43,696 nucleotides of DNA. Origin: Ereboglobus sp. (GTDB lineage: Bacteria; Verrucomicrobiota; Verrucomicrobiia; Opitutales; Opitutaceae). The stretch lies in contig JARKRC010000071.1 of NCBI GenBank assembly GCA_029974595.1, forward strand, positions 1 through 43,696, read 5' to 3'. The notes beneath the pieces are model-generated. The model searched no databases. It saw only the letters and a list, made by a program, of their open reading frames with translations, and was not told the DNA's origin. The first letter of the stretch is position 1; every line of letters begins with the position of its first letter. A program made the position numbers and the translations under genes. This document shows positions 4,953 through 43,545 of the stretch, one piece after another.

Positions 4953-5639
4953 ATGTTATCAATCCTGGCCTTCACCAATCCCATCGATGTCTTCCTGCGC
5001 TGCGATCCCGTCGGTCAGGCCATCACTGTCATGCTTGCCGTCTTCAGCATCGTCGCCTGGGCCGTCATGATCGGCAAGCGCAACGACCTCAAGCAGCTCC
5101 GCCGCCTCAATCTCGCCTTCGAGCAGCATCTTCACGAACAACCCTCCCTCATCGATCTTCCCGCGACCTACCGCAACAAGCGCAGCATCCCCTACGGCGA
5201 CCTCTTTGCCGACGCCATCGCCGCCTACTGGCGCGCCGCCGAGCTTGGGAAATCGAAGGGCATCGACACCAAGCAATACCGTCTCGAACACACCGAAAAC
5301 GCCCTCCAGCGCGCCCTCGCCCGTCAGGTGCTCCGCTACGAATCGAGCATGGTTTTCCTTGCCTCCATCGTCTCCGGCGCGCCCTTCATGGGACTCCTCG
5401 GCACGGTCTGGGGCGTCATGGAAGCCTTCAGCGCTGTCTCCGTGCAGCAAACCGCGAGCATCCAGACCCTCGCCCCCGGCGTATCCGCCGCGCTCCTCAC
5501 GACCATCGCCGGCCTCCTCGTCGCGATTCCTTCCGTCTTCGGCTACAATATTCTCTTCTCACGCAATAAACTTCTCATCACCGAAATCGAAAACTACGCC
5601 AGCTCCCTCTCCGACCGCATCGAGCTGGAATCAGAATAA
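4953..5639 (+). CDS. MotA/TolQ/ExbB proton channel family protein
   Basis: The 228-residue inner-membrane protein has three predicted membrane segments at about residues 22-40, 133-158 and 178-203. The conserved channel blocks are present: GAPFMGLLGTVWGVMEAF in the second segment and APGVSAALLTTIAGLLVAIP in the third. Length and layout fit TolQ (about 230 residues). With its partner at 5749 it would form a proton-driven motor acting on the outer membrane through a TonB or TolA type protein. Neither partner is encoded nearby. Whether it is Tol-type or Ton-type cannot be decided from sequence alone, so no symbol is given. Confidence 0.9.
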   Translation: MLSILAFTNPIDVFLRCDPVGQAITVMLAVFSIVAWAVMIGKRNDLKQLRRLNLAFEQHLHEQPSLIDLPATYRNKRSIPYGDLFADAIAAYWRAAELGKSKGIDTKQYRLEHTENALQRALARQVLRYESSMVFLASIVSGAPFMGLLGTVWGVMEAFSAVSVQQTASIQTLAPGVSAALLTTIAGLLVAIPSVFGYNILFSRNKLLITEIENYASSLSDRIELESE

Positions 5640-5747
5640 AAGTAGGAAGTAGAAATTAGAAATTAGGAAAGCAAACCAACACACGGCACACCACCTCCGC
5701 TCTATTCTGAATTTCTAATTCCTACTTTCTACTTCTTACTTTCCTAC
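5640..5747. repeat. Intergenic inverted-repeat cassette between exbB and exbD
   Basis: The left arm (about 5640-5670, AAGTAGGAAGTAGAAATTAG and onward) is imperfectly complementary to the right arm (about 5709-5747, ending TACTTTCTACTTCTTACTTT then CCTAC). The arms enclose roughly 38 bp. The left arm begins within the exbB stop codon and the right arm ends directly before the exbD start, so the whole gap is repeat. A transcript would form a long hairpin between the two partners. Confidence 0.75.
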
Positions 5748-5748
5748 A

Positions 5749-6177
5749 ATGGCCCGCTTCCAAAGACGCCCGCGACAGTCGCACCCGATCGCAGAGTTGA
5801 ATGTCACCAACCTGATCGATCTGGGCTTCACGCTGCTCATCATCTTCATGATCGCCACGCCCCTCATCAACCAGGAGCAGACCATTCCCGTAAACCTCCC
5901 CATCGAATCCCGCGGCGACACGCAGAAACCTCCCCCCGGCACGAGATTCATCGCCATCACCATCCGCGAACAAGGCGATTACTTCATCGACCAGCAGCAC
6001 GTCTTGCTCCCCGAACTCCGCGCCCGCCTCAAATCCCTCGGCGCAAACCCGGCCAACCTCGTCATCCGCATCCGCGCCGACGGCAGCGTGCCCTACCAAA
6101 AAATCATTTCCCTCATCGACGACCTCAAAAAAAACAATCTCAACAAAGTCACCTTCGACACGCAGGCAGGCTCGTGA
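5749..6177 (+). CDS. ExbD/TolR family biopolymer transport protein
   Basis: The 142-residue protein has a short basic cytoplasmic N-terminus, one membrane helix at about residues 22-40 and a periplasmic domain. The proton-pathway aspartate of the family is D24 in NLIDLGFTLLIIFM. The periplasmic part ends in the typical YQKIISLIDDLKKNNLNKVTF segment, read here as YQKIISLIDDLKKNN and NKVTF. It pairs with the ExbB/TolQ protein encoded 109 bp upstream. It is followed by a 262-bp gap filled with nested repeats and then der. Confidence 0.9.
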   Translation: MARFQRRPRQSHPIAELNVTNLIDLGFTLLIIFMIATPLINQEQTIPVNLPIESRGDTQKPPPGTRFIAITIREQGDYFIDQQHVLLPELRARLKSLGANPANLVIRIRADGSVPYQKIISLIDDLKKNNLNKVTFDTQAGS

Positions 6178-6181
6178 AGGA

Positions 6182-6435
6182 AAGTAGGAAGTAGGAATTA
6201 AAAATTAAGAAGTCCAATCCGGCGCTCCCGCGCCAAGAAACCAGAATCTAGAATTTAGAATCTAGAATCCAGAAGACAAACACCATGCAACCTTCCATCT
6301 CTCCAATCCTGCGGCGCAGCCGCGCTGCCGGGGCCGCAGGCCCCCGCTTCTATCTTCTAAATTCTAGATTCTAAATTCTCTTCCGGCGGCTCCGCCGCCC
6401 ACTTCTTAATTCATAATTCTTAATTCATACTTTTT
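6182..6435. repeat. Nested double inverted-repeat cassette between exbD and der
   Basis: Two families of low-complexity arms are nested symmetrically. The outer arms (6182-6212 and 6402-6435) are built on GTAGGAATTAAAAATTAAG and its complement. The inner arms (6241-6275 and 6347-6380) are built on GAATCTAGAATTTAGAATC and its complement. The core between the inner arms holds GC-rich hairpins around 6310-6345. A further hairpin (GGCGGCTCCGCCGCC) lies between the right-hand arms at 6385-6399. No coding potential is seen. Confidence 0.8.
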
Positions 6436-7999: not shown

Positions 8000-8009
8000 T
8001 TCCCCAACC

Positions 8010-8051
8010 CGACTTAAATCGACCTAATTCGAATTAAATCGACTTAAGTCG
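8010..8051. repeat. Palindromic TTAAATCGAC-family repeat between der and fmt
   Basis: The sequence is a near-perfect palindrome centred on TTCGAA, with arms that match at 19 of 22 positions and the core GACTTAAATCGACCTAA. A second member of the same family lies between metK and ahcY at 38586-38637. It starts 11 bp after the der stop and ends 20 bp before the fmt start. It may end transcription in both directions or stabilise mRNA, but it lacks a clear T-run. Confidence 0.7.
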
Positions 8052-8070
8052 ATCCCGTCCGCCAACGCCA

Positions 8071-9108
8071 ATGACCGCGCCGCTCCGCCTCGTCTTCATG
8101 GGTTCCGACCCGATCGCGCTGCCGCTCCTCAACTGGATCGCCAGCGCCGACGGCGCTGCGCACGCGCACATCGCGGCCATCTACACGCAACCCGACCGCC
8201 CCGTCGGACGCGGCCAGAAAATCCAGCCCAACGCCATCAAACTCTGGGCCATCGAACGCGGCATCCCCGTCCTCCAACCCGAAAAGCTCACGGAGGAAAC
8301 CCCCGCCGAGCTGGCCGCCTTCGCACCCGATGTCACGCTCATCATGGCCTACGGACACATTCTCCGCGACGCCTTCATCAATACGCCCCGCTTAGGCACG
8401 CTCAACCTCCACACCTCGATCCTCCCCAAATACCGCGGCGCATCGCCGATCCAGACTGCCATTGCCAGCGGCGAACGCGAAACCGGCGTCTCGCTCATGC
8501 GCATCGTGCGCAAACTCGACGCCGGCCCCGTCGCGGACACGGGGCGCGTCCGTATTGAAACATTGGATACAGCGCTCGACGTTGAGCAAAAACTCGCCGC
8601 CGCCTGCGTCCCGCTCGTCGCCCGCGCCCTTCCCCGCCTCGCCGACGGCACGCTCGTGTTTTCCGAACAGGACGAATCCGCCGCCACTTTCTGCCGCCGC
8701 CTCGAAAAAGCCGACGGCGCGCTGGATTTCACCGCTCCCGCCGCCGTGCTCGCCGCCCGCATCAACGGCCTTTTCCCGTGGCCCGCCTGCTCCGTCGAAA
8801 TCGCCGGCCAGCCCGTCAAGTTCGGCCAGGCCGATTGTGTCGCGCAGCCCGATGATCGGGTGGCACGGGCTTCCAGCCCGTGTGGATCGGGTGGCACGGG
8901 CTTCCAGCCCGTGTCCGTCCCCGGCACCGTCCTCGCCTCCACCGACAACACCGCCCTCCACATCGCCACCGCCGACGGCATCCTGCGCATACACCGCCTC
9001 CAGCGTCCCGGTGGCAAAATGCTCCCCGCCGCCGATTTCCTTCGCGGTTTCCCGATTCCGCCCGGCACCCAATTACCCTCGCATCCCATGCCCGCGCTGG
9101 TATCGTAG
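8071..9108 (+). CDS. fmt: Methionyl-tRNA formyltransferase
   Basis: Fmt formylates initiator Met-tRNA with 10-formyl-tetrahydrofolate. The 345-residue protein has the catalytic Asn-His-Asp set at N112 and H114 (in LNLHTSILPKYRGASPI) and D150 (in RKLDAGPV), and a C-terminal OB-like domain from about residue 205 (FCRRLEKADGALDF, RINGLFPWPA). It is about 30 residues longer than the E. coli enzyme. The excess is explained by a tandem palindromic repeat inserted in frame at residues 262 to about 281, before the PGTVL strand. Upstream is der; the next gene starts 30 bp downstream. Confidence 0.95.
   Translation: MTAPLRLVFMGSDPIALPLLNWIASADGAAHAHIAAIYTQPDRPVGRGQKIQPNAIKLWAIERGIPVLQPEKLTEETPAELAAFAPDVTLIMAYGHILRDAFINTPRLGTLNLHTSILPKYRGASPIQTAIASGERETGVSLMRIVRKLDAGPVADTGRVRIETLDTALDVEQKLAAACVPLVARALPRLADGTLVFSEQDESAATFCRRLEKADGALDFTAPAAVLAARINGLFPWPACSVEIAGQPVKFGQADCVAQPDDRVARASSPCGSGGTGFQPVSVPGTVLASTDNTALHIATADGILRIHRLQRPGGKMLPAADFLRGFPIPPGTQLPSHPMPALVS
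8854..8914. repeat. Two tandem 31-bp palindromic repeats inserted in the fmt coding sequence
   Basis: Units at 8854-8884 and 8885-8914 are identical and contain the hairpin CACGGGCT-TCC-AGCCCGTG. Because 31 is not a multiple of three, the two units are read in different frames, as RVARASSPC and then GGTGFQPVS, yet the gene stays open. Related intergenic pieces occur at about 17918-17930, 26929-26940 and 40097-40116. The TGFQPV reading is one I associate with repeat insertions in Verrucomicrobia and Planctomycetes. Confidence 0.85.
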
Positions 9109-26833: not shown

Positions 26834-26846
26834 GACATCGGAAATC

Positions 26847-27017
26847 CCAAATCCCAATTTCCAAATCCCAAATAAATCACAAAATCCAAATTACAAAAGG
26901 CGCGTATCGAAGCGCGTTAGGGCAGGTTTCCAGCCTGCCGACGAGGCAAAGCCTCGCCCTTTGTAATTTGTGATTTGTCGGTTGTGATTTATTTGGGATT
27001 TGGAAATTGGGATTTGG
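26847..27017. repeat. Inverted-repeat cassette with perfect 36-bp arms
   Basis: The arm at 26847-26882 (starting CCAAATCCCAATTTCC) is the exact reverse complement of 26982-27017. The payload between them has two compact hairpins: GGCAGG-TTTCCAG-CCTGCC at about 26930-26949 overlaps a short spacer, and CGAGGC-AAA-GCCTCG follows at about 26942-26956. The same arm family flanks the gap before metK. No coding potential is seen in this 275-bp gap. Confidence 0.9.
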
Positions 27018-27108
27018 AGTTTTCCACTCCGTCTCGCCCCCAAATCTCTTTCCCGCTCTGCCCCGCTCTTGACACCCGGATCCCGCCCTACTACTCCACC
27101 TTTCCCGT

Positions 27109-37043: not shown

Positions 37044-37067
37044 CCGGGCGGCCTGAGCGCCGCCCGG
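37044..37067 (+). terminator. GC-rich hairpin directly after the CysJ-like stop
   Basis: CCGGGCGGC (37044-37052) pairs perfectly with GCCGCCCGG (37059-37067) across a 6-base loop, beginning two bases after the stop codon. No T-run follows, so it may act as a 3' stabiliser or part of the repeat block that continues at 37068. Confidence 0.45.
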
Positions 37068-37291
37068 AAATTCCAAATCCCAATTCCCAAATCACAAAAA
37101 AATCACAAATCCCAGCATTCAAATTCCAAAAATCCGCTGACGCTCCCACCAGCGGATTTTTTTGTGCGCTGATGGCAATCTTACCGTGAGCTTTTCCCCA
37201 ATCTTCGACTGCGCCCAGCATCTCCTCCTTTTGTAATTTGGAGTTTGGAATTTGTGTTTTTTTGGGATTTGGGAATTGGGATTTGGAATTT
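37068..37291. repeat. Inverted-repeat cassette upstream of metK
   Basis: The arm at 37068-37093 (starting AAATTCCAAATCCCAATTCC) is the exact 26-bp reverse complement of 37266-37291, and pairing continues with mismatches inward. The arms belong to the same CCAAATCCCAA family as 26847-27017. The payload includes a strong terminator hairpin at 37128-37163. The rest of the 369-bp gap to metK has only a 6-bp GCATCA/TGATGC dyad near 37304-37331 and no gene. Confidence 0.85.
37128..37163 (+). terminator. Rho-independent terminator inside the repeat cassette
   Basis: AAAAATCCGCT (37128-37138) pairs with AGCGGATTTTT (37151-37161), loop of 12 bases, with the T-run continuing to 37163. It is the best terminator candidate for the CysJ-like gene and is carried within the repeat payload. 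Confidence 0.7.
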
Positions 37292-37411
37292 TTTAACAAC
37301 GCATCACGAAATCCAGATATGTTGATGCTATATTCTTGCCCCGCGTAAAAAACATTCCAGCCTTCCCCGAATCTCCACATTCACACTTCACGCACAACAA
37401 ACGCACACATC

Positions 37412-38578
<1,167 letters not shown>

Positions 38579-38585
38579 TAGCACC

Positions 38586-38637
38586 CGGCTTAAATCGACC
38601 TAAATCGACTTATATCGATTTAAGTCGCTTTAAGCCG
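38586..38637. repeat. Long hairpin repeat of the TTAAATCGAC family between metK and ahcY
   Basis: The arms 38586-38608 (starting CGGCTTAAATCGACC) and 38615-38637 pair at 21 of 23 positions across a 6-base loop, CTTATA. It is a relative of the palindrome at 8010-8051. It fills nearly the whole gap, 7 bp after the metK stop and 15 bp before the ahcY start. It may limit read-through or protect mRNA ends. Confidence 0.85.
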
Positions 38638-38652
38638 AAACGACCAAACACC

Positions 38653-40092
38653 ATGTCCAAACCCACCTTCTCGATCACGAAAAACTACCACGTCCGCGAC
38701 GTTACCCTCGCCGATTGGGGCCGCAAGGAAATCGCCGTCGCCGAGCACGAAATGCCCGGCCTCATGAGCATCCGCCAAAAATACGCCTCGACCGCCGCGG
38801 CCAAAAAGCCGCTCGCCGGCGTGCGCGTCACCGGCTCGCTCCACATGACGATCCAGACCGCCGTCCTCATCGAAACCCTCAAGCACCTCGGCGCCGATGT
38901 CCGCTGGGCCTCCTGCAATATTTTCTCCACGCAAGACCACGCCGCCGCCGCCATCGCAAAAAGCGGCACGCCGGTCTTTGCATGGAAAGGCGAAACCCTC
39001 GAAGAATACTGGGACTGCACCCTCAAGGCCATCACCTTCCCCGGCAACAAAGGCCCGCAGCTCGTCGTTGACGACGGCGGCGACGTCACCCTCCTCATCC
39101 ACAAAGGCTGCGAGCTGGAGGAAGGTTCCGACTGGGTCAACACCCCCAGCGCCAGCCACGAGGAGCAAGTCATCAAAAACCTCCTCAAGCGCGTCCACAA
39201 AACGAACAGGCATTTCTGGCTCCCCCTCGCCCGCGAATGGCGCGGCGTCTCCGAGGAAACCACCACCGGCGTCCACCGCCTCTACCAGATGCTCGACGCG
39301 AAAAAGCTCCGCGTCCCCGCCATCAACGTCAACGACTCCGTCACCAAATCCAAGTTCGACAACCTCTACGGCTGCCGCGAATCGCTCGCCGACGGACTCA
39401 AGCGCGCCACCGACGTCATGATCGCCGGCAAAGTCGCGTGCGTCTGCGGCTACGGCGACGTCGGCAAAGGTTCCTCCCACTCCCTCCGCGGCTTCGGCGC
39501 GCGCGTCATCGTCACCGAAATCGACCCCATCAACGCCCTCCAGGCCGCAATGGAAGGCTTCGAGGTCAACACCATCGAAAGCACCCTCGGCACCGCCGAC
39601 ATCTACGTGACCACGACCGGCAACTGCGACGTCATCACGCTCGAACACATGAAGCGCATGAAAGACCAGGCCATCGTCTGCAACATCGGCCATTTCGACA
39701 ACGAAATCCAAGTCAGCCGCCTCTATAAGGAAAAAGGCGTGAAGCGCATCACCATCAAACCGCAATACGACCAGTTCGTCTTCCCGAACGGCCGCAGCAT
39801 TTATCTCCTCGCCGAAGGCCGCCTCGTGAACCTGGGATGCGCCACGGGCCACCCCTCGTTTGTCATGTCAAACAGCTTCACAAACCAGACCCTCGCGCAA
39901 ATCGATCTCTGGGCAAACCGAGACAAATACGAAGTCGGCGTGTATCGCCTGCCTAAGCACCTCGACGAGGAAGTCGCCCGCCTCCACCTCGAAAAAATCG
40001 GCGTGAAGCTGACCAAACTCACCAAAAAACAAGCCGCCTACCTCGGCGTCCCTGTGAGCGGCCCCTACAAACCCGAGCACTACCGGTATTAA
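38653..40092 (+). CDS. ahcY: Adenosylhomocysteinase (S-adenosylhomocysteine hydrolase)
   Basis: AhcY splits S-adenosylhomocysteine to adenosine and homocysteine and so removes the product inhibitor of methyltransferases. The 479-residue protein has the substrate-binding [14 protein letters not shown] and [14 protein letters not shown] blocks, the NAD loop [10 protein letters not shown], and the C-terminal dimer segment KPEHYRY. Bacterial enzymes of this length carry the extra segment seen here around [20 protein letters not shown], given as KAITFPGN and LVVDDGGD. The ATG at 38653 matches the family start. It is the second gene of a metK-ahcY operon and ends in a clear terminator. Confidence 0.98.
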
Positions 40093-40143
40093 AAAAGTGG
40101 CACAGGCTGCCAGCCCGTGTTCATAAATTCCCGATCACCACCC

Positions 40144-40390: not shown

Positions 40391-41083
40391 ATGAAAATAA
40401 CCTACCTCGGACACTCCTGCTTCCTCGTCGAAACCTCCGCCGCCCGCCTCATCATTGACCCTTTCCTCACCGGCAATCCGAGCGCCGCCGCGCAGGCAGC
40501 CGACATCCGCTGCGACTACATCCTCATATCGCACGGCCATTGCGACCACACCGGCGACGCCCTCGACATCGCCAAGCGCAATGACGCCACGATCATTTCG
40601 AATCACGAAATCTGCAATTACTTCGCCGCCCAAGGCGCAAAAGCCCACAACATGAACCCCGGCGGCGCGTTCAATTTTCCCTTCGGACGCGTCAAGCTCA
40701 CCATCGCGCACCATTCGTCCAGCGAAGACAGCGATGCGACAAACCCGCTTCAGCCCGTTTATCTCGGCAACCCCTGCGGCATCGTCATCGAAGCCGACGG
40801 CAAACGCCTCTACCATGCCGGCGACACCGCGCTCTTTCTCGACATGCAGCTCATCGCGCGCGGCGGCCTCGACCTCGCCATGCTCCCCATCGGCGACAAT
40901 TTCACAATGGGCCCCGACGACGCCCTTGATGCGCTCGACATGCTCAAGCCCAAGGCCGGAATCCCGATGCACTACAACACCTGGCCCCCGATCGCGCAGG
41001 ACGCCTCCGCCTTCGCCGCCACCGCGAAACTGCGCAGCCACCTCGTCCACCCGCTCAAACCCGGCGAAATCGTGACAATTTGA
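40391..41083 (+). CDS. UPF0173 family metal-dependent hydrolase (metallo-beta-lactamase fold)
   Basis: The 230-residue protein has a metallo-beta-lactamase fold with the metal-binding motif SHGHCDHTGDA (H48, H50, D52, H53), an early LGHSCFLVET strand, YHAGDTALFLDM with the next metal ligands, and the C-terminal PMHYNTWPPI with a further histidine. These features and the length match UPF0173 hydrolases. The substrate of the family is not known. The ATG at 40391 is at the family N-terminus. It is convergent with tRNA-Leu and the genes that follow. Confidence 0.92.
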   Translation: MKITYLGHSCFLVETSAARLIIDPFLTGNPSAAAQAADIRCDYILISHGHCDHTGDALDIAKRNDATIISNHEICNYFAAQGAKAHNMNPGGAFNFPFGRVKLTIAHHSSSEDSDATNPLQPVYLGNPCGIVIEADGKRLYHAGDTALFLDMQLIARGGLDLAMLPIGDNFTMGPDDALDALDMLKPKAGIPMHYNTWPPIAQDASAFAATAKLRSHLVHPLKPGEIVTI

Positions 41084-43519: not shown

Positions 43520-43545
43520 GGGGAGCGCACGCGTCTCGCGTGCCG
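43520..43545. repeat. Interspersed GGGGAGCGCACGCGTCTCGC element
   Basis: The core AGCGCACGCGTC (43524-43535) recurs at 17815-17826 in the cassette upstream of the LacI-type gene end. It lies in the gap between the OppA-like start and the insertion sequence. Function unknown. Confidence 0.3.

Follow-up and report, generated by a model that had tools for sequence, protein, structure and literature searches.

Why does the gene for methionyl-tRNA formyltransferase (fmt) carry a palindromic repeat twice, in frame, and how might the repeat have come to lie there? The window, that is, the whole 43,696-nucleotide stretch of DNA analysed here, lies on contig C8 of a 4.07-Mb draft genome in 77 contigs (G000), whose genus mates in our comparisons are G001, G002 and G003. 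The gene occupies positions 8071–9108 on the + strand and encodes 345 residues. Its product matches Formyl_trans_N (4.8e-30) and Formyl_trans_C (3.9e-18) in Pfam, and the solved structures closest to its predicted model are Fmt enzymes.

The insert in fmt is a pair of REP elements

The first-pass annotation described two identical 31-bp units within fmt. The two copies are indeed identical and in frame, but each is 30 bp long (8854–8883 and 8885–8914, + strand); with one base between them, 31 bp is the distance from start to start. Each copy consists of a head, GATCGGGTGG, and a hairpin, CACGGGCT-TCC-AGCCCGTG. Because of the 31-bp spacing, the second copy is read in another frame than the first, giving the peptides DRVARASSPC and GSGGTGFQPV in turn, and in the ORF translation neither copy brings a stop into the reading frame, as the annotation had also noted. 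Folded as single-stranded DNA, a single unit forms an 8-bp stem with a 3-nt loop (z = -3.5), and 1 of 200 shuffled sequences folds equally well. In the predicted Fmt structure (mean pLDDT 93.2), pLDDT is 54 for residues 261–270 and 49 for residues 271–280; in the model, the insert lies in a surface loop of low confidence flanked by strands 247–257 and 286–288, a location that had been raised as a possibility. This variable loop, from FGQAD to PGT, comprises 36 codons (8822–8929, + strand). In 30 Fmt proteins compared, it has 15–22 residues in 19 and 27–52 in 11, which agrees with the earlier estimate that the repeat adds about 20 residues. The palindrome seems to be translated along with the rest of Fmt, and the view of it as a dispersed element tolerated as coding sequence is upheld.

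What kind of element is this? According to passages of PMC6006769, REP elements have GTAG or GTGG 0–2 nt 5ʹ of a 7–20-bp stem with a loop of 2–5 nt. Both fmt copies have GTGG directly before CACGGGCT, an 8-bp stem and a 3-nt loop. Other properties of the REP class are also found: the copies are many and dispersed, the same repeat flanks a RAYT (see below), and the location is mainly extragenic, from which REPs take their name. We conclude that the insert consists of two REP elements of the GTGG type, that is, non-autonomous hairpins. Since intragenic REPs of Opitutus terrae have already been published (PMC3733652), the fmt insert on its own belongs to a described class.

Across the whole G000 genome, 72 sites match CACGGGCTTCCAGCCCGTG with at most one mismatch, and a reversed control pattern has no match. 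Among 57 genomes, the number of such sites is 172 in G007, 72 in G000, 18 in G002, 5 in G003 and 3 in G001; six further genomes have one site each and 46 have none. In 270 kb fetched around genome sites, a survey that includes the window and is not a random sample, there are 113 copies with at most 4 mismatches in 22 bases. GTGG lies immediately 5ʹ of the stem in 104 of the 113. There is little variation in the stem; the tip varies with compensation (CTTCCAG, CTGCCAG, CATCCTG, CGACTCG). Neighbouring copies form 8 inverted pairs 31–32 bp apart and 11 direct pairs within 40 bp.

In the window, the 21-mer GGCACGGGCTTCCAGCCCGTG has three matches with at most three mismatches (shuffle mean 0.00, n = 100). 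The sole further copy of the fmt-type REP found there, at 40098–40119 (+ strand), has two mismatches in the 21-mer and is intergenic, between genes called at 38653–40092 and 40391–41083. The first-pass claim that relatives lie in several gaps of the window is not borne out; the other gap repeats are of different families. An approximately 10-bp periodic repeat, CGACTTAAATCGA, from a family other than REP, is present at 8007–8061, just upstream of fmt, and at 38573–38647. Long inverted arrays of AAATCCCAATTCCCAAATCC occupy 26839–27022 and 37065–37292, with one pair of arms 97% complementary, and arrays of AGAAATTAGAAATTAGGAAGTAG and AGAATTTAGAATCTAGAA, inverted copies among them, lie at 5634–6379. 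A second, putative REP-like family is also represented in the window by a single hairpin at 43521, one mismatch from the hairpin flanking the RAYT of alaS discussed below; this hairpin has six copies in the surveyed 270 kb.

REP insertions in the Fmt loop and in other genes

Is the insert peculiar to this fmt gene? Our comparison covered 30 of the Fmt loci in 55 genomes with a match, the window's included. A GTGG-REP hairpin within four mismatches is found in the fmt genes of G000 and G002 only among the 30, so the added residues are not ordinary sequence that all relatives have without the repeat signature. Each of these two genes has two direct REP copies at the same place, which indicates that the insertion is probably older than the split between G000 and G002. 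The identity of the two G000 copies suggests later homogenisation or renewed duplication. The long Fmt loops of G001 and G003 were also considered as dispersed repeats and rejected, being single-copy in their genomes and without the GTGG-REP hairpin.

Dispersed hairpins of some kind occupy the Fmt loop in 7 of the 30 proteins (G000, G002, G024, G029, G026, G004 and G006). In five other genera, the loop contains other dispersed palindromes, belonging to four unrelated kinds. Their dispersal was counted by matching both strands, such that one site can count twice. The hairpin TGTCACG...CGTGACA in the loops of G024 and G029 has 67 and 145 genome matches, respectively, with at most three mismatches (control 0), the G029 loop copy itself being two mismatches from the pattern. 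The loop hairpins of G026, G004 and G006 have 27, 24 and 18 genome matches, with control values of 1, 1 and 0. The loop hairpin of G032 was considered as an eighth dispersed case; because it is four mismatches from the TGTCACG pattern and is absent among the 32 matches of its genome, it is counted as related only. A hairpin shuffle test of the 30 loops gave p < 0.05 for five and p = 0.08 for G000, with 4 of 323 control segments beating all 60 shuffles. We judged this test too weak, since GC-rich shuffles pair too, and used dispersal in each loop's own genome instead. We propose that this loop of the Fmt C-domain tolerates extra residues and would for that reason be hit repeatedly by unrelated REPs. 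Its occupation in several genera amounts to a natural insertion experiment, marking where the enzyme tolerates new peptides.

How often are REPs found within genes? We called genes with a codon-usage-based caller made for this analysis, on stretches chosen around REP copies. The copies inside other genes, left to be counted by the first-pass annotation, can now be numbered: of 113 copies, 36 are internal to genes, 75 are intergenic and 2 are at gene edges. Approximately 79% of the examined bases were called coding, yet two in three copies are intergenic; hence, genic REP insertions are depleted. The internal copies use all six frames and are spread over 17 host frames; a small number of these could be spurious or joined. 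Ten REP-bearing host proteins were compared with NCBIfam: six pass the cut-off (aroA, sucB, lpd, mutL, ksgA and ispH), CobN and LpxB have matches that fall short of it, another protein matches activase-type models only, under their cut-offs, and one has no match at E up to 1e-10. The REP-bearing uvrA of G000 also passes its NCBIfam cut-off. Further tandem REP pairs read in two frames, as in fmt, are found in ksgA and ispH. As a separate observation, uvrA of G000 twice contains, in frame, a peptide that ends in IVNRKSEIVN; on reading, the two copies may be translated AT-rich dispersed repeats.

Might the element be selected for being translated, as a flexible or interacting peptide, as has been proposed for Rickettsia palindromic elements? 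Its in-frame location in many housekeeping genes, and the fact that all six frames are open and used, are consistent with this idea. However, REP copies are depleted in genes, and the peptide changes with the frame, which leaves no one peptide for selection to act on. Moreover, the tag here is GTGG, whereas RPE-4 and RPE-6 belong to the CGTC class according to passages of PMC3733652. Although the REP unit is stop-free in every frame, so are 19% of random 30-mers at the same GC content, and we draw no conclusion from this property. Selection for the peptide seems improbable to us.

A different view is that genic REP copies, together with the embedded RAYTs described below, are rare neutral accidents that have survived unpurged, the real biology of the element being intergenic, in the form of RNA or DNA hairpins. 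The excess of intergenic copies over a largely coding background is in favour of this view, and Di Nocera et al. likewise argue, in passages of PMC3733652, that insertions may be neutral. We give it an even chance. For the short REP peptides, it is largely compatible with the explanation that we favour; the evidence against it comes from the embedded RAYTs.

RAYTs in frame inside host genes

How would the REPs have been mobilised? Most likely they spread via single-stranded DNA by the action of a RAYT (REP-associated transposase, or TnpA-REP, of the HUH/Y1 type). A profile search found six Y1_Tnp matches in G000. The RAYT at C10:14855-15088 has three fmt-type hairpins on each side, in arrays 708 bp apart. 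It sits in a 744-residue frame whose parts ~1–188 and 465–743 align to a single gene in G001 and in G003. The C part of this frame belongs to the isochorismate synthase subfamily (317.8 bits, NCBIfam cut-off 224.75); we use menF as a short name only, the NCBIfam MenF equivalog cut-off not being reached. In G007, which is of another genus, a RAYT is found at the same menF-like site with the same flanking REP, and the menF RAYTs of G000 and G007 group together in a tree with 97/96 support. The two genomes with a menF RAYT are also those with the highest REP counts among the 57. These flanks and copy numbers make the menF-embedded RAYT the best-fitting candidate for the mobiliser of the fmt-type REP. 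No menF match was found in G002, which is 65% complete and has 18 REP copies. The menF genes of G001 and G003 have no RAYT, but each retains a degenerate REP pair (4–6 mismatches), for which reason we rejected them as empty sites, and in menF of G018 REPs are present and the RAYT is absent. Thus, REPs can be present there in the absence of a transposase, whether through loss of the RAYT or through several hits on the site.

We propose that REPs, and entire REP-RAYT-REP units, land at many places. Landings in genes would persist only if they leave the host's reading frame open and its protein can accommodate the added residues, as the Fmt loop is expected to do for the REP pair. A RAYT in frame inside a needed gene, such as alaS or menF, would probably be translated only within the host protein, although its protein sequence is conserved. 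As a whole, from the fmt REP pair and its mobilisation by a RAYT to persistence in a tolerant loop and translation of embedded RAYTs within their hosts, we regard this explanation as likely to be correct.

The genes that host RAYTs are alaS, the menF-like isochorismate synthase gene, a creatininase-like gene and hsdR-like genes. In G000, alaS forms a single 1133-residue frame that matches tRNA-synt_2c, tRNA_SAD, DHHA1 and Y1_Tnp, and it scores 788.7 against the NCBIfam alaS cut-off of 457.05. This RAYT-bearing gene is the only alaS match in G000, the three other matches in that genome being RAYTs. The same arrangement is found in G003, split over two contigs; alaS of G001 is without a RAYT and has 948 residues between match ends. 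In both G001 and G003, a RAYT lies between two creatininase matches. RAYTs are also found in hsdR-like frames of G043, where hsdR passes the NCBIfam cut-off, and of G002, where the frame reaches the contig end. We rejected the RAYT of G009 as a continuous fusion, since a stop after it splits off the C part of the Eco57I host, the same frame then resuming; it is left out of the continuous fusions and kept among the nine embedded RAYTs in the ATG count below. Besides the RAYT, a REP-like peptide, GADIPVC...QTGMSAPP, recurs several times in frame in this Eco57I-type gene (L168). In G004, the reading frame of a RAYT gene (L278) was itself seen to contain the REP of that genome. Open frames at L169, L173 and L176–L181 were taken, by reading only, for chance frames or larger transposases and not for host fusions.

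All nine fusions scanned score above the Pfam cut-off for Y1_Tnp (PF01797), and the HVH (HUH-type) motif is present in the RAYT sequences inspected. The NCBIfam model NF047646 (REP_Tyr_transpos) gives 73–79 bits, with E-values of 1e-20 to 1e-22 and a cut-off of 80, for five of six fusions; the sixth, that of G002, is not listed at E up to 1e-10. The Y1_Tnp search in 120 genomes of the family, of which at least 107 have a match, served only to choose frames for inspection. Embedded RAYTs were found through long open frames, and RAYTs that break genes out of frame escape notice, so the share of RAYT insertions that are in frame is not estimable. A frame that is open through a needed gene is expected in any case, because selection acts on the host. 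On a tree built from 19 RAYTs, of which 8 are embedded, five changes are required to explain the embedded label, a value as low as that reached in 100 of 500 shuffles; thus, embedding is not limited to one clade.

Could faulty assembly or binning of draft genomes have produced the embedded RAYTs and the fmt repeat? The G000 draft comprises 77 contigs, and in G003 two contigs run out into poly-C junk where the alaS REP lies. In contrast, the creatininase RAYT is in frame in G001, an assembly of one contig, and so is the menF RAYT in G007, an assembly of two contigs. Furthermore, two species whose dS is near 1 share the alaS RAYT. An artefact is very unlikely.

Do the embedded RAYTs decay? Between G000 and G003, the alaS RAYT is identical at 125 of 154 residues, with no gap and an omega of 0.127; omega for the C part of AlaS is 0.277. 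For the creatininase RAYT of G001 and G003, omega is 0.131, with 0.282 and 0.167 for the host parts, and three free-standing RAYT pairs have values of 0.09–0.13; dS near or above 1 leaves some of these values rough. For the menF RAYT pair, dS is saturated and there is hence no value. The two embedded RAYT pairs tested are under purifying selection, with an omega of ~0.13. Such values, without gaps between species, argue against neutral accident for these two RAYTs, which are not decaying passengers. Their conservation could also reflect the need to fold without harming the host.

A RAYT is usually a free-standing gene with its own start, a trait that most embedded RAYTs do not share. An ATG lies within 40 codons upstream of the RAYT core in 1 of 9 embedded RAYTs, namely the stop-bearing case of G009, and in 8 of 11 free-standing RAYTs (Fisher p = 0.0098). 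These 20 RAYTs were taken from earlier match lists, not at random, and after orthologues are collapsed the contrast is not significant (1 of 6 vs 6 of 9, p = 0.12). The alaS RAYT of G000 has no ATG, GTG or TTG in the 40 codons upstream; that of G003 has no start codon in a 40-codon stretch that includes contig-end junk, and a free-standing RAYT of G044 likewise has none in 40 codons. Since an own start is mostly missing, we infer that translation of the host protein is the only source of the embedded transposases. They may be produced solely as fusion proteins, yet still work. On the basis of sequence, we infer that the fusions are translated and that both halves are active.

Comparison with known systems

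How do these arrangements compare with those already described? Passages of Di Nocera et al. 2013 (PMC3733652) report that, in Opitutus terrae, most GTAG-20 REPs have a GTGG head, and that this species has the most intragenic GTAG REPs, with both of its uvrA genes hit. The fmt-type REP resembles these GTAG-20 elements in its GTGG head and in having uvrA as a host, a comparison by head and hosts. The terms "formyltransferase", "fmt", "alanyl" and "isochorismate" are absent from the main text of PMC3733652, and its sections 15 and 16 make no mention of RAYT genes inside other genes. REPtrons, or TnpA-REP systems, as described in passages of PMC6006769 and PMC8266576, likewise combine a Y1 transposase that has an HUH motif with a flanking array of its own REPs; here, in contrast, the transposase frame is continuous with a host gene and mostly has no nearby ATG. 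The RPE and WPE palindromes of Rickettsia and Wolbachia are similar in lying in frame in housekeeping genes. They differ in the tag, which in RPE-4 and RPE-6 is CGTC rather than the GTGG head found here, and CGTC repeats have no association with transposase genes, according to passages of PMC3733652. We found no earlier report in the open-licence literature of RAYTs in frame inside host genes or of unrelated REPs in the Fmt loop. What appears to be new, tentatively, is that unrelated REPs have landed repeatedly in the Fmt loop and that needed genes contain RAYTs in frame.

To our knowledge, how RAYT genes are maintained over the long term is an open question. The in-frame RAYT in the sole alaS found, with no nearby start and a low omega, offers a concrete route to persistence, by being tied to a needed protein. 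Inteins are selfish domains that lie in frame inside a needed protein, and embedded RAYTs resemble them in this respect. They differ in that eight fusions gave no Pfam match to an intein splicing domain at E up to 0.001, and nothing suggests that the insert is removed. It is possible, although we put it forward as a speculation that may well be wrong, that RAYTs of the Opitutales act like inteins without splicing: having given up their own start, they would be in-frame domains of AlaRS or MenF and always expressed, their loss by frameshift or nonsense mutation would harm the host, and their stop-free REPs would spread to loops such as that of Fmt.
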